A stretch of DNA of 64,000 bases from Salinilacihabitans rarus (GTDB lineage Archaea > Halobacteriota > Halobacteria > Halobacteriales > Natrialbaceae), in the NCBI RefSeq assembly GCF_024296665.1, contig NZ_CP100762.1:434001-498000 (forward strand). Direction: 5' to 3'. Both the position numbers and the translations under genes were made by a program. Numbering within the stretch: the stretch's first letter is position 1; each line of letters starts with the position of its first letter. The notes below the pieces were generated by a model. The model had not been told where the DNA came from and ran no database searches. It saw only the letters and a program-made list of their open reading frames with translations. This document shows, piece by piece, positions 5,033-57,187 of this stretch.

Positions 5033-6307
5033 TTAGAGGATCGACTCGTCGACGGTCGGACTCAGACTGCCCGTGTGGGCGTAGACGCCCGTGACGAGGA
5101 CCGCACCGGCGACCACCGCGATGGTCGCGCTCGCGGCGTACATCGCCCCGAAGCCGACGGCCTCGACCAGCGGCAGCGAGACCATCGGTCCGAGGCCGCC
5201 GCCGACGTCCCCGAGGACGTTGTTGGTCCCCATCGCCCGCCCCATCCGCTCTTCGGGGGTGAGGTCGGCAAGCAGGGCGGTCAGCGGGCCGCCGACGCCG
5301 CCCTGCCCGGCGCCGACGAGGGCGCAGGCGGCGACGACGACCGGGAACGACGGCGCGAGCGCGAGCACGACGAAGCCGACGCAGTTGGTCGCGAGGAAGA
5401 AGACGAGCACGGGGACCCGCGCCCCGACGGTGTCGCTCGCGGCGCCACCCGAGATGGTGAAGATCGACCCCGCGAGCACCGTCACCGCCATCAGCATCCC
5501 CGAGGTGCCCTTCGGGCCGAACGCGACGGCGTAGCCGAGGACGTCGGTCGAGATGGTGAGCGCCTCGCGTTCGAGGTAGAGCACGAGCGTCGAGAACAGC
5601 ACGCCGACGTACGCGAAGTAGAGCCCGAAGTTGACCAGCCCGACGGTGAGCGCGGGCGTCGTCAACTCGAGGTCCCACGGCGAGACCGACCTGTCGGCCG
5701 CCTCGACGTGGGTCTCCGGGACGACGAAGTAGGCGACGACACTCGCCAGCGCGGCGAAGGCGGCCGCGAGGACGAACGCGACGGCGTTCCCGTACTGCTC
5801 GCCGACGATTCCCCCGAGGACGAGGCCGACGGGAAAGCCGAAGGTGATCCCCGCGCGGACGACCCCCATGCTGGTGCCCCGCGAGTCGGCCTCGCTGACG
5901 TCGGCGGTGATCGTGTACGCCGTCGCGAAGACGAGCGCGCTCCCGAGCCCCCAGAGCACGCGCGCCAGCAGGAACCAGAACTCGGGGGCGCCCGGCAGGA
6001 CCGCGACCTCGTCGGCGACGAGCGCGACGACGTAGCCGAACGTCGCGACGCCCTCGACCGCCAGTCCGACGACGAACGGCGTCCGGGTGCCGACGCGGTC
6101 GATGAGGACGCCCGCCGGGGCGTTCGCGACCAGCCGCGTCCAGCGGTTCGCCGCGAGGATGAGCCCCACCATGAACGCCGAGATGCCCAGAAACTCCCCG
6201 AGGGTCGGCAGGATCGGGAAGATGACCCCGCCGCCGAAGCCGACGAAGAAGGTGCTCGCGACGACGGCGAGGACGACGCTTCGGGGACTGGCGCTCGAAT
6301 CCGGCAC
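5033..6307 (-). CDS. MFS transporter
   Basis: A 424-residue polytopic membrane protein with about 12 hydrophobic helices. The cytoplasmic loop between helices 2 and 3 carries a degenerate major-facilitator signature, GVLIDRVGTRTPF. The second half begins after the polar loop near residues 196-213. It starts with GTG at 6307. There is no substrate-specific motif and no co-transcribed enzyme, so the substrate is unknown; drug/proton antiporter-like members share this length. Confidence 0.85.
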   Translation of the reverse strand: MPDSSASPRSVVLAVVASTFFVGFGGGVIFPILPTLGEFLGISAFMVGLILAANRWTRLVANAPAGVLIDRVGTRTPFVVGLAVEGVATFGYVVALVADEVAVLPGAPEFWFLLARVLWGLGSALVFATAYTITADVSEADSRGTSMGVVRAGITFGFPVGLVLGGIVGEQYGNAVAFVLAAAFAALASVVAYFVVPETHVEAADRSVSPWDLELTTPALTVGLVNFGLYFAYVGVLFSTLVLYLEREALTISTDVLGYAVAFGPKGTSGMLMAVTVLAGSIFTISGGAASDTVGARVPVLVFFLATNCVGFVVLALAPSFPVVVAACALVGAGQGGVGGPLTALLADLTPEERMGRAMGTNNVLGDVGGGLGPMVSLPLVEAVGFGAMYAASATIAVVAGAVLVTGVYAHTGSLSPTVDESIL

Positions 6308-6428
6308 TGGCGATCGCTCCGAGGTGTTTCGATTCGTAACGGCGATACCGGACGGGCGCTCTTGGCTCTTCCGGAGTCGCGAAACGGTGCCGGTCCGACG
6401 CGAGGAAGGGGAGACCGGCGACCGCGAC

Positions 6429-7634
6429 TCAGAAGGTCGTCAGGTCGCCCTCGATGACCCGGCGGGTGACGTCGGTGACGGTCGCGAGGCGCTCGTCGGC
6501 GATGGCCGTGACCTCGGCCTCGACGTCCGAGAGTTCGACGCCGTCCTCGGTGACGACGTGGATGTCGGCGACGTGGGGTCGGTCGATCGGACGGCCGATC
6601 TGGCTGAGCAGTCGGACGCGCAGGTCGCGGATGCCGTCGACCTCGCCGACGACCTCCTCGGCGATCTCCGTCGAGAGCAGGTTGTAGATCTTGCCGATGT
6701 GATTCACGGGGTTCTTGCCGCTGGTTGCCTCCATCGACATCGAGCGGTTGGGCGTGATGAGGCCGTTGGCGCGGTTACCCCGGCCGACGGAGCCGTCGTC
6801 GCCCTGCTCGGCGGAGGTGCCCGTGACGGTGAGGTAGATCGACCCCTGCTCGACGTCGTCGGCGGTGTTGACGTGGACGTTCACCTCGCGGTCGGTGTAG
6901 TCGGCGGCGACCTCGGCGACGTACTCGCGGACCGACTCGACGGCGTCGACGTAGGCGTCCATGTCGGGGACGTACTCGTCGACCATCGCCGCGGCGACGG
7001 TGACGTCGATCGTATCGCCCTCGCGTTTGCCCATGATCTTCACGTCCGGCCCGAGGTAGGGGTTCTCGGCGGCGAACTCACCGTTGAGTCGCCGTTCGGC
7101 GTTCAGGACGATCTCCTCGGTCTCCGAGAGGGGGGCGTGGCCGACGCCGAAACTCGTGTCGTTGGCCATCGGTACCTGCACCTCGTCCTCCCCGAAGACC
7201 TCCTGGAGGTCGCCGCTTCCCTCGCCGAGTTTCACGTCGACGACGACGTCCTCGCCGAACTCGAGTTGGGGAATCTCGGATTCGAGGTACTCGCGGGCGG
7301 CCGTCAGGGCGATCCGCTCGGTGGGGATCGTCTGGCCCTCGTAGTGTTTGGTGGCGCGGCCGACGATCAGCACGTAGATGGGGTCGACGACCTCGCCGCC
7401 GCCGAACGCGGGGGCGGCCTCGCCCGCGACGAGTTGCGTCTCGTCGGTGTTGAAGTGCAACACCTTTCCGACGCGGTCGATGTACTCGCGGGCGAGCGCC
7501 CCGGCGACGCTCTCGGCGATCCCGTCGCAGATCGAGTCCGGGTGACCGATCCCTTTCCGTTCGACGATCTCTACCTCCTGATCCTCGACGGCTCGGCGAT
7601 CGATCGGCTCGACCCTGATGTTCCGCTCGCTCAT
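6429..7634 (-). CDS. mat: Methionine adenosyltransferase (archaeal type)
   Basis: A 401-residue archaeal-type S-adenosylmethionine synthetase (ATP + methionine to AdoMet, phosphate and diphosphate). It belongs to the family of archaeal MATs unrelated in detail to bacterial MetK. Recognisable blocks are [37 protein letters not shown] and [13 protein letters not shown]. Length and start agree with the family. A TATA box (GTTATA, minus strand) lies 27-32 nt before the ATG, so the transcript is probably leaderless. It is a housekeeping gene, standing alone. Confidence 0.95.
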
Positions 7635-7659
7635 TGCCGGACGTTCAGCCGGGGTCGTT

Positions 7660-7715: not shown

Positions 7716-8264
7716 TCACTCGGCGAGCGACAGTTCGAGGTACGAGGTCCGGATCCCGTCCGCGGGGTCGAGTCCCAGCCGTTCGAGGACCGCCGCCGCG
7801 CCCTCACGGACGGCGTCGAGGTCGTCCGCCTCGGCGGCGGCCTCTACCTCGACGAACTCGCCGACGCCGTCGACCGAGTCGACGACGACCGCGTAGCCGT
7901 CGAGGCCGTAGCGCTCGCGCTCCTTGCGGACCGTCGCGGCGGGCTCGAAGCCGAGGTGGCCGAGGATGGTCGCCAGTTTCTCGCCGTCGGCGACGCGCGT
8001 CTCGACCTCCTCGCGGGTCTTCGTGGCGTCGTCGACCAGCGGCCCCTTGTAGGTCACGCGGGTCTCCGGGTCGGCTCCCTCCTCGTCGACCGCCACCTCC
8101 TCGCGGATCCGCAACGCCTCGTCGGTCTCCGGGAACGACCGGTGGGGGGCGTCGTAGTAGGTGTCCTCCTGGACGACCGTCCCGCGGCGGTCGGCCCCGA
8201 GTTCGTCGAGCCTGTCTCGGACCCGGTCGGGGTCCGCGGGCACCTTCAGTTCGACCTCGTACAT
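7716..8264 (-). CDS. CYTH-domain protein (class IV adenylate cyclase / triphosphate tunnel enzyme)
   Basis: A 182-residue CYTH protein. The hallmark ExExK motif is at the very start (MYEVELK), which also fixes the ATG at 8264; an in-frame ATG at 8324 would add 20 non-conserved residues. Later strands contain the expected alternating basic and acidic residues of the triphosphate tunnel: YYD, LRIREE, TYKGPLVD, RKERERY, VVVDSVDGVGEFVEVE. The family includes CyaB adenylate cyclase, thiamine triphosphatase and polyphosphatases. The CyaB-like annotation is common in archaea, but activity is rarely shown. Stand-alone gene, divergent from the FKBP gene. Confidence 0.85.
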   Translation of the reverse strand: MYEVELKVPADPDRVRDRLDELGADRRGTVVQEDTYYDAPHRSFPETDEALRIREEVAVDEEGADPETRVTYKGPLVDDATKTREEVETRVADGEKLATILGHLGFEPAATVRKERERYGLDGYAVVVDSVDGVGEFVEVEAAAEADDLDAVREGAAAVLERLGLDPADGIRTSYLELSLAE

Positions 8265-8327
8265 GGGCGGGTCGAGGGGCGGCGCGCTCAAGAAAGGGTC
8301 GCTCTCGACCGTGTGGAAACGCATCCC

Positions 8328-8334
8328 TTAAATG
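8328..8334 (+). promoter_or_regulatory. TATA box of the FKBP gene
   Basis: TTAAATG at 8328-8334, about 23-29 nt before the ATG at 8357, fits a leaderless haloarchaeal promoter. It lies in the short divergent spacer shared with the CYTH gene. Confidence 0.55.
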
Positions 8335-8356
8335 TAGACGGCGGGACGTACCACGT

Positions 8357-9379
8357 ATGACCGAGGATCAGGAGGCCGATCTCGAGGAGCAGGCCGATGA
8401 CGTCGAAGCGGAGACCGAAGACGCAGACGCCGACGGGCTTCAGGTCGGCGACTTCGTCGAGATCGCCTACACCGCACGCACCGTCGACGGCGACCAACTG
8501 GTCGACACGACCGACCCCGAGGTCGCCGAGGAGGAGGGCGTCGACGCCGACCGCGAGTTCGCCCCCCGGACGATCGTTCTCGGCGAGGGCCACATCTTCG
8601 AGGCCGTCGAGGACGAACTCGTCGGCACCGAGGTCGGGACCGAGGGCACCGTCACCATCCCCGCCGAGGACGCCTTCGGCGAGTACGACCCCGACGCGGT
8701 CGAGACCGTCAGCGCCGAGAAGATCGACGAGGACGACCGCTACCCCGGCGCACACGTCCACCTCGACAACCGCCACGGCTACGTGAACACCATCGTCGGC
8801 GGCCGCGCCCGCATCGACTTCAACCACCCGCTGGCCGGCGAGGACGTCGAGTACGAGTTCGAGGTCCTCGACGAGGTCGACGACCGCGAGCAGCAGGCCG
8901 CCGGCCTGTTCGAGATGTACCTCGACGTCGAACCCGAACTCCACATCGAGACCGACGAGGTCGAAGAGGAGGTTCCCGTCGAGGCCGACGACGGGGACGA
9001 CGAGGACAGCGAGACTCCGGAGGAGTCTCGTGAAGGCGGCGAAGCCGCCGACGCCGAACCCGAGTTCGAGACCCAGACCGTCGAGAAGGAGACGCTGTAC
9101 GTCGAGTCGACGCCGCAGTTGACGATGAACCAGCAGTGGATGTTCTCCAAGCAGCAGATCGCCCAGGACGTCATCGACAAGGTCGGCGTCGACCGCGTCA
9201 TCGTCCAGGAGGTCATCGACGGCATGGGCGGCATGGGCATGGGCATGGGCGGCATGATGGGCGGCATGGGTGGCGCCGGTGGCGCCGGCGGCGCCGACCT
9301 CGAAGCCGCGCTCGAAGACGCCGACGTCGACGCCGACGAGATCGTCGAGGAACTCGAAGGCGACCTCGACGAGGAGTAA
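8357..9379 (+). CDS. FKBP/SlyD-type peptidyl-prolyl cis-trans isomerase with GGM-rich tail
   Basis: 340 residues. An acidic N-terminal segment (1-27) is followed by a SlyD-like FKBP core: VGDFVEIAYTARTVDG, then the GHIFEAVEDELVGTEVG region and the insert-in-flap region with PGAHVHLDN, and DFNHPLAGEDVEYEFEV, the usual end of the FKBP fold. A long archaeal-type C-terminal extension follows an Asp/Glu linker (about 212-240). It ends in a Gly/Met-rich stretch (about residues 288-311, repeated GMGG) and an acidic tail. It is a cytoplasmic folding helper. The Gly-Met run is like the GGM tails of group I/II chaperonins and may be a flexible tether. Confidence 0.9.
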   Translation: MTEDQEADLEEQADDVEAETEDADADGLQVGDFVEIAYTARTVDGDQLVDTTDPEVAEEEGVDADREFAPRTIVLGEGHIFEAVEDELVGTEVGTEGTVTIPAEDAFGEYDPDAVETVSAEKIDEDDRYPGAHVHLDNRHGYVNTIVGGRARIDFNHPLAGEDVEYEFEVLDEVDDREQQAAGLFEMYLDVEPELHIETDEVEEEVPVEADDGDDEDSETPEESREGGEAADAEPEFETQTVEKETLYVESTPQLTMNQQWMFSKQQIAQDVIDKVGVDRVIVQEVIDGMGGMGMGMGGMMGGMGGAGGAGGADLEAALEDADVDADEIVEELEGDLDEE

Positions 9380-52227: not shown

Positions 52228-53010
52228 CTAGTCGAGCAGGTCCGCGATTTCGGCAAGCGAGTCGAGGACGTAGTCGGGCCCCGCGGCGGCGTCCGCGACG
52301 TCCGCGCGGCTGGTCAGCCCGGTCGTGACGAGCGCGGTCGTCATGTCCGCCCGGCGGCCGAGTTCGACGTCGGTGTCGAGGCGGTCGCCCACCACGAGCG
52401 TCCGCTCGGGCGGGACGCCGAGACGGTCGATCGCCGCCGCCGCGGCGACGTCGGAGGGCTTTCCGAGGACGGCGTCCGGCGGGCGGCCCGCGATGGCCTC
52501 CAGCGCCCCGAGGATCGCGCCGGAGCCGGGCATCGAGCCGTTCTCGGTCGGGATCGTCGAGTCGGGGTCCGTGCCGTAGAACGGTACGCCCCGTTCGAGG
52601 GCGGTCTGGGCCTCGCCGAGGCGGTCGTAGCTCAGCCCGCGGTCGATCGAGCCGAGGACGACGTCCGCCGCCGTCGGCTCCGCCGTCACGACGAGGTCCC
52701 GGGTTTCGAGGATCGCCCGGAGCCGGGACTCGCCGAGGAGGTAGATCGCGTCGTCGGCGTGGTTCGCGGCGAGGTACTCGGCCGTCACCGTCGCCGAGGT
52801 GAGCACGTTTCGGGGGTCGACCTCGATGCCGTGGTCCCCGAGGCGGTCGCCGTAGTGGGCCGCCCCGCGGGTCGGGTTGTTCGAGAACAGCAGCCGGGGG
52901 ACGCCGGCCGCGTCGAGCGCTCGTAGCCCGTCGACCGCGCCGGGGAGCAACGCGTCGCCGCGGACGATGGTGCCGTCGACGTCGAGGATCGCCGCCTCGA
53001 AGGGAGCCAT
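52228..53010 (-). CDS. HAD-family hydrolase (NagD/4-nitrophenylphosphatase-like)
   Basis: 260 residues from the ATG at 53010. It is a class IIA HAD phosphatase. Motif I is AILDVDGTIVRGD, motif II LFSNNPTRG, motif III with the Lys in AVLGKPSDVAAAA and motif IV in VVGDRLDTDVELG. The C2-type cap lies between motifs II and III. Members dephosphorylate sugar or nucleotide phosphates and glycerol phosphate. It is transcribed away from the split gene to its right. Confidence 0.9.
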   Translation of the reverse strand: MAPFEAAILDVDGTIVRGDALLPGAVDGLRALDAAGVPRLLFSNNPTRGAAHYGDRLGDHGIEVDPRNVLTSATVTAEYLAANHADDAIYLLGESRLRAILETRDLVVTAEPTAADVVLGSIDRGLSYDRLGEAQTALERGVPFYGTDPDSTIPTENGSMPGSGAILGALEAIAGRPPDAVLGKPSDVAAAAAIDRLGVPPERTLVVGDRLDTDVELGRRADMTTALVTTGLTSRADVADAAAGPDYVLDSLAEIADLLD

Positions 53011-53098: not shown

Positions 53099-53190
53099 AT
53101 GACACTCGAGGTCGAGCCGACCTCGACGAGGAGGGGTACGCCGTCGCCGGCGACCTCGCGCTCTTCGCGGACTACGATTTCTTCTCGGGC
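53099..53190 (+). pseudogene. 5' remnant of the gene split by the insertion
   Basis: A start MTLEVE (ATG 53099) resembles MALDVE of the intact homologue at 53206-53664. A shift in frame then gives ADLDEEGYAVAGDLALFADYDFF, which aligns with DLEETDYEVVADLNLIRQFDFF of the same homologue. About 60 residues between the two pieces are missing and similarity stops after FF. The downstream half appears at 55047-55304. A TATA-like CTTATTC (53069-53075) lies before the ATG. I infer a host gene broken by the insertion and then decayed. Confidence 0.5.
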
Positions 53191-53205
53191 GGCCCGGCCG
53201 TTGTT

Positions 53206-53664
53206 CTAATCGAAATCGGGCAGATCGTCCGGTGGTTCGTAGTCGGATTCCCAATCGATGTAGTCGTCTTTCAGTACCTCACAGACGATTTGCCCTAGTT
53301 CGGTCAGTTCGGCATTGATCGACGATACGCTTCCCCACGAATCCAGATCCGAGTGGTACTCGCGTTCTCGCCAATCTTCGGGGATCCCAGGTGCGTGGTA
53401 GCCTACCCTGTCGGCAAACGAATCCCAAAAAAAGTCAAATTGTCGTATCAAATTCAGATCGGCCACTACCTCGTAGTCGGTTTCCTCGAGATCGGTGTCT
53501 TCGGCCCAGATGTCCCACGCCTGTTGCCACGCGCCGTCGTTCAACAGGGTCGATATCTCGTCCCGCTTGTAATCCGTCTCACCGACTATTTCGGCGTCGT
53601 CGTACTCGTTAGGATCTACGTCCCGCAACTCGGGCGGGTCGGGAGTCTCCACGTCCAGGGCCAT
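53206..53664 (-). CDS. 152-residue acidic protein, homologue of the split host gene
   Basis: 152 residues, no signal peptide and no membrane helix; very acidic with many Asp/Glu/Trp (WQQAWDIWAEDTDLEE, FDFFWDSFADRVGYHAPG, DYIDWESDYEPPDDLPDFD). The C-terminal half is almost identical to the fragment encoded on the opposite strand at 55047-55304. The gene has lower GC and more A/T third positions than neighbours, a sign of transfer. I do not know the family. The size, acidity and presence of a duplicated diverged copy recall immunity proteins of polymorphic toxin systems, which is only inference. Confidence 0.75.
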   Translation of the reverse strand: MALDVETPDPPELRDVDPNEYDDAEIVGETDYKRDEISTLLNDGAWQQAWDIWAEDTDLEETDYEVVADLNLIRQFDFFWDSFADRVGYHAPGIPEDWREREYHSDLDSWGSVSSINAELTELGQIVCEVLKDDYIDWESDYEPPDDLPDFD

Positions 53665-53739
53665 ACGTTGGCTAAGCGACCTGCATTCATAAGAATAGGT
53701 GACGCCGGATTGCCCCCACAGATTCGCGTGTAGGCTATC

Positions 53740-54052
53740 CTCCTCGCGCCTATAACGAGTCTCACTATCGTATCGCGTGATTGCGTGGCCGCGTACGGTC
53801 TTCGGTCGAACTCGACTTCGACTTTCACGTCGATGTACTCGTGGTACAGGTCAGCCACACCGTCGTGGATCTGCTCGCCTTCCGTGGAAATGGCGCGGCC
53901 GCGCCATTCCTGCAATTCTCCCGTCACGGCCGGGTTCGAACTCTCTTGCAGCCGACTCACGAAGTGACCGTCGTTCCCATCGATCAACGCGAAGCGGCGG
54001 TACTTGAAGCAGGCTCGATCGAACGGAACGAGCCGACAGCGGGAGGTATCCG
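53740..54052 (-). pseudogene. Coding-like frame without a start, inside the insertion
   Basis: On the minus strand a frame reads CRLVPFDRACFKYRRFALID, HFVSRLQESSNPAVTGELQEW, VADLYHEYIDVKVEVEFDRR, which looks like real protein, directly after the stop of the lipoprotein gene. It has no ATG at the front; TTG or GTG codons inside could start a shorter form. Its 3' part runs into the spacer before the acidic protein. I cannot name it. The remaining bases of 53665-54052 hold nothing else that I can see. Confidence 0.3.
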
Positions 54053-54718
54053 TTACGCCGCCGGGAACGTTATCTCGATGCTGTCGTCGTATTCGACCGT
54101 TGCTGTGACTGGATTGAGCGTTTCGATAGTTACTTCCACCTCTTCGACCCCATCGGATACTTCGTAAACCTGCCATTCGTTCACGGAGTCACCGGGATCG
54201 AGTGCGATGTTTAGGCGACTACCATCGACCAGGACCGTCCACTCGCCTTCTTCACCATCCGCGTTAACGGTGATGTTTCCGGGGGCAAAGTCGATTCTTT
54301 CCTCACCAACGTTCTCGATCCGGAACTGACCGAGAAGGAAGGCTTCGCCGTCCTCGGCTTCCCAGAACTGATCACCGTCTTCAAGGGTGTCGTATACCTC
54401 TGCGTAAAACGAAACGTCGAGTTGTCCAGTCGGATCGTCAGGGTTGGCGTCGACACCCTCGATTGTCGGCTGACTGTCGACCAGTTCACCAAACTCGTTA
54501 CCTGCTGTCTCGGACCCGTCATCGCTATCGCCGTCGGTGTCGTCGGTGTCATCTGTGCCGTCGGTGTTGTCTGTGTTATCTGTGTCGTCGGTGTCAGCGC
54601 TGGAACTGTCGGTTGATGGTGGCTCATCGCCAGAATCAGCACATCCAGCCAACGCAACGGTGCTTAGACTACCGACTGCGGCGACCCCTTTTGTTGTAAG
54701 GAAGGTTCTTCTATGCAT
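54053..54718 (-). CDS. Tat-exported lipoprotein with Asp/Thr repeat and beta-sandwich domain
   Basis: 221 residues. The N-terminus HRRTFLTTKG followed by LSTVALAGC (Cys25) is a Tat signal with lipobox, so the mature protein is lipid-anchored outside. Residues about 33-75 are a linker of (D)DTDNTD repeats. The remainder is a beta-rich domain (FYAEVYDTLEDGDQFWEAED, FRIENVGEERIDFAPGNITV, VTIETLNPVTATVEYDD) similar to DUF4352-like immunoglobulin-type folds. Codon use is less GC-rich than its surroundings. It is part of the inserted segment. Confidence 0.8.
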   Translation of the reverse strand: MHRRTFLTTKGVAAVGSLSTVALAGCADSGDEPPSTDSSSADTDDTDNTDNTDGTDDTDDTDGDSDDGSETAGNEFGELVDSQPTIEGVDANPDDPTGQLDVSFYAEVYDTLEDGDQFWEAEDGEAFLLGQFRIENVGEERIDFAPGNITVNADGEEGEWTVLVDGSRLNIALDPGDSVNEWQVYEVSDGVEEVEVTIETLNPVTATVEYDDSIEITFPAA

Positions 54719-54954
54719 TAGTATCCTCTTCGGTTACGTTACCTAATTGATGGGGTAGTACTATCGTGGCTCTATTTGATTCCTTTGCCATCTGCATTCA
54801 TCTATCATTATCGAACTATCATAAATGTAATTGAAACAGTCACTATTTCTTTGAAATTTATATTGGGTTAAAATAATCGACGTCTGAAAGCTATGTATGA
54901 TCCGAACGCTGAACGCGACGTTAGACGATACTGAATTTTGAGGGTGGAGAACGG
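54719..54954. other. AT-rich gene-free stretch of the insertion
   Basis: About 235 nt of unusually AT-rich DNA, including TTTGAAATTTATATTGGG and GGTTAAAATAATCG, with no coding frame longer than a dozen codons. It holds likely promoters for the lipoprotein gene (minus strand) and possibly for the fragment that follows. Composition differs strongly from the host. Confidence 0.5.
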
Positions 54955-55038
54955 GTGACAGACGAGTTGGGTTTGACGTGGCAAGAGTTCGTCACCCAAG
55001 CGGCCGATACACTGGTCAAACGGGACGGTGTAGATTAG
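54955..55038 (+). pseudogene. C-terminal fragment resembling a ribbon-helix-helix type protein
   Basis: 27 codons from GTG (54955) to TAG: DELGLTWQEFVTQAADTLVK. The phrase 'GLTWqEF...AA..l' is typical of the second helix and tail of small haloarchaeal ribbon-helix-helix DNA-binding proteins. The upstream frame is closed 10 codons earlier, so the N-terminal strand is gone. Confidence 0.35.
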
Positions 55039-55046
55039 TTCCGTAG

Positions 55047-55304
55047 CTTCTCGAGAAGGGCGGCTTTGATTTCGGGATTGTCTGGGACGACTTCGCCGAC
55101 CGCGTCGGCTACCACGCGCCGGGCATCCCCGAGGACTGGCGCGAGCGCGAGACCCACCCCGACCTCGACTCGTGGGGGACGGTCTCGGCGATCAACGCCG
55201 AACTGACCGAACTCGGTCAGATCGCCTGCGACCTGCTGAAAGCGGAGTACGTCGACTGGGAGGCCGCGTACGAACCGCCGGAGGACCTGCCGGATTTCGA
55301 TTGA
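55047..55304 (+). pseudogene. 3' remnant of the split host gene
   Basis: The frame after TAG (55044-55046) reads LLEKGGFDFGIVWDDFADRV, then GYHAPGIPEDWRERETHPDL and DSWGTVSAINAELTELGQIA, ending EPPEDLPDFD at TGA 55302-55304. It is about 80 per cent identical by eye to the second half of the 152-residue protein encoded on the opposite strand at 53206-53664, but with host-like GC-rich codons. No start codon is present. It is best explained as the end of the host gene whose beginning is at 53099. It abuts the zinc-ribbon gene. Confidence 0.7.
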
Positions 55305-55448
55305 TCACTCCTGGGCGACCGAGAGGGTCTTCACGGCGCCGCGACACCGCGGACACGCGCCGGGCGTGTGCGCCTCGAACGCACGGTGACCACAGTCCAG
55401 ACACTCGTAGTACGATCTCGACGGCCTGTAGGGGCTCATGTAGACCAT
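55305..55448 (-). CDS. Rubrerythrin-like zinc-ribbon protein, 47 residues
   Basis: 47 codons from the ATG at 55448 (an ATG at 55439 would give 44). Two Cys pairs form a zinc ribbon: YYECLDCGHRAF and GACPRCRGAVKTL (CxxC...CxxC). These small proteins are common in haloarchaea and named rubrerythrin-like because the ribbon is like that of rubrerythrin; no iron domain is present. A TATA-like GGTTATGC lies 23-30 nt upstream, fitting a leaderless start at 55448. The stop codon touches that of the convergent remnant. Confidence 0.8.
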   Translation of the reverse strand: MVYMSPYRPSRSYYECLDCGHRAFEAHTPGACPRCRGAVKTLSVAQE

Positions 55449-55555: not shown

Positions 55556-56113
55556 CTATCGCGCCGTCGCCACGACCGCGAACGTCGCCGGGCGCTCGCG
55601 GGCCTCCTCGACCTCGAAGCCGGCGGCCTCGAGGTCGGCGACGGCCTCAGCCGCGGAGAACCGTTCCTCGACCGGCGGACCCGCCTCGTCGTCGCCGGCC
55701 GCCGACCAGTCGACGGTCACGAGTCGCCCGCCCGGCCGGAGGACCCGCGCCAGTTCAGCGAACGCCTCGTCGCTCGCGTACTCGTGGTGGGTCATCGTCG
55801 AGTACGCCCCGTCGAGGCCGTCGTCGTCGAACGGCAGCGAGGCGACCGCGGCCGTCACGAGGTCGACGTTCTCCGGGACGCCCTTCTCGCGGTACCGGTC
55901 GTGCATCGCGGACTGGACGTCGACCGCGCGGAGGGTGCCGACGAACGGGGCGACGTCGTCGGCGAAGAAGCCGGTGCCCGAGCCGAGGTCGGCGACGACG
56001 TGGTCGGGTTCGGGCGCGAGCATCGCCACCAGTTCCTCGCGCGAACAGAGGCGGTAGCGCGACGGGTCCTCGAGGGCGTCGGCCCGTTCGATCGGGAACG
56101 TGTGAAAGCCCAT
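55556..56113 (-). CDS. Class I SAM-dependent methyltransferase
   Basis: 185 residues. It is a Rossmann-fold methyltransferase with motif I VVADLGSGTGFFADDVAP, the acidic end of strand 2 in RAVDVQSAM, motif II/III at LVTAAVASLPFDDDGLDGAYS and motif post-II VLRPGGRLVTVDW. The N-terminus (MGFHTFPIERADALEDPSRY) is typical of the small archaeal subfamily whose substrate is unknown. Together with the LLM-type gene upstream on the same strand it is separated by 69 nt, so it may not be co-transcribed. Confidence 0.87.
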   Translation of the reverse strand: MGFHTFPIERADALEDPSRYRLCSREELVAMLAPEPDHVVADLGSGTGFFADDVAPFVGTLRAVDVQSAMHDRYREKGVPENVDLVTAAVASLPFDDDGLDGAYSTMTHHEYASDEAFAELARVLRPGGRLVTVDWSAAGDDEAGPPVEERFSAAEAVADLEAAGFEVEEARERPATFAVVATAR

Positions 56114-56182: not shown

Positions 56183-57187
56183 TCAGCGCAGCGCCGGCAC
56201 GACCTCGCTGCCGAGGCGGTCGATGCACTCGCGCATGGCGTCGGTTCCGATGCCGGGGTGGTAGGTGCGGAAGATGACGTGGACGTCGTCGCCGACCGCC
56301 TCGCGGTAGGCTTCGAGTTCCTCGACGACGTGGTCGGGAGTGCCGACCATCGCCTGCTCTCTCAACGCCCGCTTTCGCTCGGCCGGGAGTTCGGAGACCG
56401 GTTCGCCCGAGAAGATCTCGGCGTACCGGCGCTGGATGTAGAAGTAACCGTCGCGCATCGCCTCCCACGCGGCCTCGCGGGAGTCGCCGACGAAGCCGTG
56501 CCGGAGGACGTAGACGTCGAACTCGCCGTCGATCCCCTCCCGCTCGCGGACCGCCCGGACGTCCTCGACCCGTTTCCGCACGCCCTCGACCGACAGCGAC
56601 GACGGCGCACACCAGGCGTCGGCGATCCGGGCGGCCCGACGCACCGCCGGCCTGGCCTTCCCGCCGAGCATGATCGGCACCTCGCCGTCGGGTTTCGGCG
56701 TCACCGAGACCTCGGGGGAGACGTCGTGGAACGCGGCGTCGTAGTCGAGCGACCCCGCCGACCACGCCGCCCGCAGCAGTCGAACCTGCTCTTCGAGGCG
56801 CTCGACGCGTTCCTCGCGCGGGACGCCGAACGCCTCGAACTCGCGGGGGTTCGAGCCGATGGCGAGCCCCAGCGTCAGCCGGCCACCCGAGAGGAGGTCG
56901 ACCGTCGCGGCGTCCTCGGCCAGCCTGACCCCGTCGTACAGCGGCGCGAGCGCGATGCAGGGGCCGATCTCGATCCCGTCGGTCGCCGCGGCGAGCGCGC
57001 CCAGCGCCGGCATCGTCCCGGAGAGGTAGTCGTCGTCGGCGAAGTGGTGCTCGGAGACCCACGCGCTGTCGAGGCCGGCGTCGTCGATCGCGCGGGCCAG
57101 GTCGAGCATCTCCGCGTACAACTGCTCCCCGGTGCGGTCGTCGTCGGGGCGGCGCTGGCACGTGAACAGGCCGGTGCCGAGCTTCAT
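56183..57187 (-). CDS. LLM-class (luciferase-like, F420/flavin-dependent) oxidoreductase
   Basis: 334 residues of a TIM barrel bacterial-luciferase-like enzyme: MKLGTGLFTCQ at strand 1, WVSEHHFADDDYLSGTMPAL, EIGPCIALAPLYDGVRLAED, GGRLTLGLAIGSNPREFEAFG and the later VEELEAYREAVGDDVHV. The cofactor is FMN or F420; haloarchaea often use F420. The location near PaaK- and EthD-like genes suggests oxidation of an organic compound. The substrate is not known. Confidence 0.87.
   Translation of the reverse strand: MKLGTGLFTCQRRPDDDRTGEQLYAEMLDLARAIDDAGLDSAWVSEHHFADDDYLSGTMPALGALAAATDGIEIGPCIALAPLYDGVRLAEDAATVDLLSGGRLTLGLAIGSNPREFEAFGVPREERVERLEEQVRLLRAAWSAGSLDYDAAFHDVSPEVSVTPKPDGEVPIMLGGKARPAVRRAARIADAWCAPSSLSVEGVRKRVEDVRAVREREGIDGEFDVYVLRHGFVGDSREAAWEAMRDGYFYIQRRYAEIFSGEPVSELPAERKRALREQAMVGTPDHVVEELEAYREAVGDDVHVIFRTYHPGIGTDAMRECIDRLGSEVVPALR

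Follow-up and report, generated by a model that had tools for sequence, protein, structure and literature searches.

The window, i.e. the whole stretch of 64,000 nucleotides that was analyzed, very probably harbors what is left of an integrative element that entered a native gene, here denoted X, at a specific mid-gene site and that carries a divergent, complete copy of this gene, Xv, which replaces the host copy. The element is probably a provirus or the satellite of one. This reading is based on the anatomy of the split gene, on the recurrence of the same arrangement in other genomes, one of which retains a complete element, and on the origin of Xv.

Gene X and its interruption in the window

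X encodes a haloarchaeal protein of about 152 amino acids, present in relatives as a single intact copy at the same locus with the gene order HAD-family phosphatase (minus strand), X (plus strand), zinc-ribbon protein, methyltransferase and luciferase-like monooxygenase (all three minus strand). The same neighbors are found in the window, where the phosphatase (52228-53010, minus strand) is the conserved left neighbor of native X, as in L074, L082, L086-L090, L094, L095 and L099, and the small zinc-ribbon protein (55305-55439, minus strand) the conserved right neighbor, located beside X in 37 loci; the methyltransferase (55556-56113) and the luciferase-like monooxygenase (56183-57187), both on the minus strand, are further conserved neighbors. 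The relatives thus show an empty site with one intact X in a conserved neighborhood, as anticipated in the first-pass annotation, rather than the same three pieces without an intact gene.

In the window the segments 53099-53185 and 55081-55304, both on the plus strand, match the start and the end of native X and are confirmed as parts of one gene, which had been proposed earlier with the borders 53099-53190 and 55047-55304. The N-terminal remnant encodes MTLEVEP (53099-53118, codons 1-7), followed by a frame-shifting deletion of 157 nt, after which 53116-53185 corresponds to native codons 59-82 and ends at the insertion point. Although a left piece devoid of real similarity to the gene had been considered, its DNA matches native X of the relatives with z = 9-18, whereas it does not align with the inserted Xv (z = 0.6; 500 dinucleotide shuffles in both comparisons). 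The C-terminal part ends in a clean C-terminus and is 78% identical to residues 76-152 of Xv; over these 77 residues the homology claimed in the first-pass annotation is real, while the wording "nearly identical" overstated it.

Between both pieces lie 1,895 bases (1.9 kb; 53186-55080) with a GC content of 54%, compared to 74% in the left flank, 70% in the right flank and 70% in the whole window, which are absent from relatives with intact X and are interpreted as a decayed integrative element. By junction alignment, the segment 53186-53205, which separates the break in native X from the stop codon of Xv, represents the element end with a decayed end motif. It is followed by Xv (53206-53664, minus strand, 152 residues), the sole intact X of the genome, with a third-position GC of 0.67 as opposed to 0.88 for the C-terminal part of native X; these two sequences constitute an inverted repeat of 225 bp with 77% complementarity. 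Both the lower GC content of the insert and its complete reverse-oriented homologue had been recognized correctly. The insert further contains a fragment of an IS4-family transposase (53739-54023, minus strand; at most 75% identity to haloarchaeal plasmid sequences, several of which are annotated as IS4 family transposase), unnamed in the first-pass annotation, and a Tat-type lipoprotein (54053-54718, minus strand), whose earlier assignment is borne out by its RRTFL motif and LAGC lipobox and which is weakly DUF4352-like below threshold (Pfam PF11611, E 0.025; phrog_806, E 1e-4). The fragment formerly called DNA-binding-like (54955-55038, plus strand) is only the 27-residue C-terminal tail of a protein and has no family match. 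Lipoprotein and tail do not reappear in the other examples of the element, and the suggestion of an exchangeable module formed by them is not supported. Neither an integrase remnant nor a viral gene was found in the insert. Away from the insert, the window genome contains a distant terminase match (46%; G000:C1:2668271-2669023) and two distant integrase matches of equal score, 61 kb apart (G000:C1:581001-581960 and 641743-642702), which may belong to other proviruses or to a duplicated element.

Within the window's family X was detected in all 111 good genomes, which cover 29 of 29 genera, and within the order in 327 of 345. Judged by this distribution it is a core gene, and presumably an essential one. 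The 18 good genomes of the order without X are apparently clustered in few genera (e.g. g61, g40 and parts of g52), and X may be dispensable in these lineages. Searches with X gave no match in Pfam, NCBIfam, PHROGs and PADLOC, no solved structure in the PDB for its sequence profile, no convincing match in the IMG/VR viral collection and none in phage records; in the plasmid collection solely the X2 paralogue was matched, at about 45%. X2 forms a paralogous family about 40-50% identical to X, members of which are often plasmid-borne and sometimes placed in tandem with X (e.g. L116 5485-5895, among many genomes).

Recurrence of the arrangement and the element of G222

The architecture recurs in six genomes from several families, namely the window genome, Salinadaptatus halalkaliphilus (L004), G080 (L110), G222, G277 and G409, the latter three being new cases from a survey of X with about 1.1 kb on either side in 80 further genomes. 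In all six, an Xv with low third-position GC is positioned tail-to-tail with a native N-terminal fragment. G222 and G277, both probably Halorubrum, and G409 belong to families other than that of the window, display the same orientation and are broken at codons 76-88; the native break falls at codons ~76-88 in five of the six genomes, while the shorter fragment of G080 ends at codon 37. Xv and the broken native gene are the constant components, to which an integrase is added in three genomes with the other element end preserved or inferable. Truncated copies of X in G026 and G124 were rejected as insertions, the truncation being a contig end, and G179, a candidate by its GC content, turned out to be an ordinary low-GC host locus.

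In Salinadaptatus halalkaliphilus a provirus ends in an Xv that is 84% identical to that of the window. It encodes a large terminase subunit (phrog_2, phrog_38, Pfam Terminase_6) and a primase, and its Xv lies tail-to-tail with a native N-terminal half of 84 codons (81% to native copies), the break of which, at FDFFWD, coincides with that of the window. The gene usually following X starts another contig, behind an IS630 transposase fragment, and the provirus therefore most likely lies between two contigs. The neighboring genes of the provirus led to no further X-linked proviruses. The Xv of G080 stands opposite a degraded native N-terminus, within a region that has since been rearranged: the genes flanking native X in its congeners are now 49 kb apart and inverted (L110 10052-13476; L182 9513-10769), with one breakpoint coinciding with the Xv/native X junction. 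G409 (L283 7626-8482) is a second decayed remnant like that of the window, of about 1 kb and consisting of Xv and one low-GC ORF beside the native N-terminal fragment. In G032 (L108 9847-10305) an Xv-type X occupies the native position with orientation and neighbors as in the congeners and without a native remnant; an Xv-type X without native remnant is likewise found in G121 (Natrialbaceae archaeon Tc-Br11_E2g1; L109 6443-6898). Both appear to be completed gene replacements.

A complete element is found in G222, where both native halves are kept 3.05 kb apart and bound the insert exactly. Along L280, the C-terminal half of native X (6141-5926) is followed by a tyrosine integrase (6263-7654; Pfam PF00589, 1.5e-15), a segment with 32-bp inverted repeats and a DUF5789 gene (7717-8515), Xv (8729-9187) and the N-terminal half of native X (from 9450 downwards). 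The GC content is 52% in the insert and 69-73% outside. The DUF5789 segment resembles a non-autonomous insertion of later date, in which case the core element would consist of integrase and Xv. G277 has an integrase of 95% identity, which is itself disrupted and lies next to the native C-terminal half on a different contig. When 392 genomes of the order were searched, the best identity outside these two Halorubrum-type genomes was 51%, and among the integrase loci fetched from that search only those of G222 and G277 are located beside X. Salinadaptatus, which is not part of the 392-genome sample, possesses a 66% identical integrase on an orphan contig of 3.9 kb, which by its presence in this genome is likely the cognate enzyme of the provirus; no overlap was found between the ends of this contig and the provirus. 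The linked tyrosine integrase presumably catalyzes the insertion into X.

Next to the stop codon of Xv, the elements of Salinadaptatus and G277 share the end motif ACGACTnGnnnGTTATTC; G222 has it with a single mismatch, and G409 in a looser form. In G222 an inverted copy is present at the integrase end, and the element ends are hence inverted repeats. Allowing up to 3 mismatches, a search of the window did not recover the motif; only GTTGTTCTA is left as judged by eye. Among the six cases the junctions vary by a few codons, and a common core near TCTGGGAC is assumed. Of the features expected for an integrative element, a defined insertion site is evident from the six genomes, with the break at codons ~76-88 in five of them and an uninterrupted gene in relatives, and an integrase at the element end is present in G222 and G277 (none in the window). 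Viral packaging or structural genes, as expected for a provirus, accompany the arrangement in Salinadaptatus (terminase, together with a primase), and none occurs in the window or in the G222 element.

Origin of Xv, its crossover site and competing readings

In a tree of 113 X proteins, Xv of the window and X of Salinadaptatus, G121, G032 and G080 form one clade (100/98), whereas the placeable congeners of G032, G080 and G121 (G029, G030, G031 and G033; G081, G082 and G084; G122) are all located in the main Natrialbaceae clade. By this placement Xv is foreign to the host lineage. Pairwise dN/dS within the Xv clade is 0.02-0.13 (NG86, where defined) and hence reveals strong purifying selection on these copies. 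Altogether, element-borne X falls into three separate groups of the tree; consequently, either X was taken up by elements on repeated occasions or the copies follow host lineages, and more than one adoption of the strategy, or renewal of the copy from hosts, has to be assumed.

The break site in native X mostly reads TCTGGGAC (132 of the 172 copies that do not belong to the six element cases). Contrary to this, all six element-borne Xv contain the core TTTGGGAT, which is found in 3 of the 172 other copies (Fisher p = 2e-9) and is a silent change that keeps the protein sequence. Part of the excess is explained by low third-position GC, as a comparison restricted to such copies yields 6/6 for the elements versus 3/9 for others (p = 0.03). 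Two of the three remaining carriers, the X of Natrinema pallidum contig_90 and that of G370, are suspected to be element copies as well because of their low third-position GC. In Natrinema pallidum DSM 3751 (L027 / G064:C90), the sole detected X lies on this low-GC contig of 3.7 kb, the ends of which match insertion sequences, and is distant from other Natrinema X; it is probably another element-borne copy. The altered core probably keeps the integrase off the element's own Xv and would in this way confer self-immunity.

From these observations the following course of events can be proposed. The element would enter native X in mid-gene, around codons 78-82, carrying Xv at its end in opposite orientation to native X; as seen in the better-preserved relatives, the integrase end would come to lie by the native C-terminal half and the Xv end by the N-terminal half, which places attP between integrase and Xv in the excised circle. 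Elements at tRNA or gene ends can rebuild their target. Due to the split in the middle of the gene the target would not be rebuilt here, and instead the element would supply a complete X from its own end. Insertion would destroy the host X, and Xv, with its own promoter region, would be expressed and complement it; the insertion into a core gene would be tolerated because Xv takes over its function. Repair of the damage done by integration is the simplest role for the copy on the element. The window would have lost the integrase along with most of the element and acquired the IS fragment, while the native halves decay and Xv is kept by selection, an intermediate stage with Xv presumably in charge.

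Several other explanations were weighed against site-specific integration. Foreign DNA might by chance have brought a second X into the vicinity of the native gene, whereupon the redundant native copy broke down under relaxed selection, with no targeted integration involved. The further deletions within the native fragments of the window and G080 would agree with such a decay, as would the Xv-type X of G032 at the native locus without a remnant. Chance is, however, difficult to reconcile with a break that falls within the same few codons in five of the six genomes, with a tail-to-tail Xv in every case and across several families, with native N-terminal halves in Salinadaptatus and G222 that are otherwise intact up to the junction, and with an insert in G222 whose borders coincide exactly with the two native halves and which contains an integrase, so that this course of events is regarded as improbable. 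A purely host-internal event, i.e. tandem or inverted duplication of native X or gene conversion without foreign origin, could produce two related copies in one place, as embodied by the inverted repeat described above; it is extremely unlikely, since the intact copy groups with Xv of other genera far from the main Natrialbaceae clade, and since Xv differs from the native gene both in the DNA comparison with the left piece and in third-position GC. Duplication of the host's own X was rejected on the basis of the tree, unless the tree is wrong, and of that DNA comparison.

The first-pass annotation had envisaged a replacement cassette in which an immunity or resistance gene is exchanged together with a partner. 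The cassette as such is upheld, as the insert interrupts the gene and carries its reverse homologue, but X as an antitoxin, immunity or resistance gene is very unlikely. What speaks for it, a variant of the disrupted gene on the element and a secreted lipoprotein in the same insert, is outweighed by the near-universal occurrence of X as an apparent core gene, by the lack of any match to defense, toxin, immunity or resistance families in PADLOC, Pfam, NCBIfam or PHROGs, and by the missing travelling partner: lipoprotein and other cargo are not common to the other examples, and the minimal element of G222 comprises integrase, Xv and one DUF5789 gene.

Relation to known systems

Site-specific integration with a substitute gene is known from tRNA-dependent lysogeny, where the integrase destroys an essential tRNA gene via a short core and the actinobacteriophage carries a replacement tRNA (PMC10865867). 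Both systems share a tyrosine integrase, a target inside a single-copy gene (essential there, presumably so for X), a short common core (here presumed) and, as seen in G222 and in the window, a gene that is not rebuilt at either junction and a complete substitute on the element. In contrast, the bacterial system concerns a tRNA gene and was established by experiments, whereas the archaeal one concerns a protein-coding gene, is known from genomes alone and has its substitute facing the disrupted gene head-on from the end of the element. Because X is protein-coding, the X elements resemble tRNA-dependent lysogeny but are not members of it.

Site-specific insertion into coding sequence has also been described for archaea: BJ1 integrates in the HMG-CoA reductase gene (reviewed in PMC8371274), and 14 thaumarchaeal elements reside in protein genes at 3'-distal sites (PMC6563490), unlike the mid-gene break with a whole replacement gene reported here. 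No substitute copy is described for either in the passages concerned of PMC8371274 and PMC6563490, and a search of the open-access literature found no described archaeal protein-gene integration with a complete substitute. Similarity to haloarchaeal tailed viruses (HRTV-28, HSTV-1, BJ1 and HRTV-27) is seen for the Salinadaptatus terminase (37-45% over about half its length) and for the integrase (45% to HRTV-27), but the phage records contain no match to X.

The replacement of a native copy by a horizontally acquired orthologue corresponds to xenologous gene displacement, with the difference that here the replacing agent and its entry site are visible. Foreign orthologues replacing core genes are an old pattern in archaeal trees, and the agents are seldom caught. 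On balance, the elements appear to represent a widespread class of haloarchaeal proviruses and small elements with protein-gene-dependent integration, which would split a near-essential core gene at a fixed mid-gene site and survive only via a complete copy with a silently altered crossover site, the core gene thereby being replaced repeatedly across families, sometimes as a cleanly swapped allele without other trace (G032, G121). Such elements would provide a visible mechanism for the replacement of core genes by foreign orthologues and would extend substitute-dependent lysogeny from bacterial tRNA genes to an archaeal protein gene. Direct tests of the essentiality of X, of cutting of X by the integrase and of the immunity of the element copy are now possible. 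For the haloarchaea themselves, the finding would mean that the near-universal X is so important that viruses supply a copy of it themselves.
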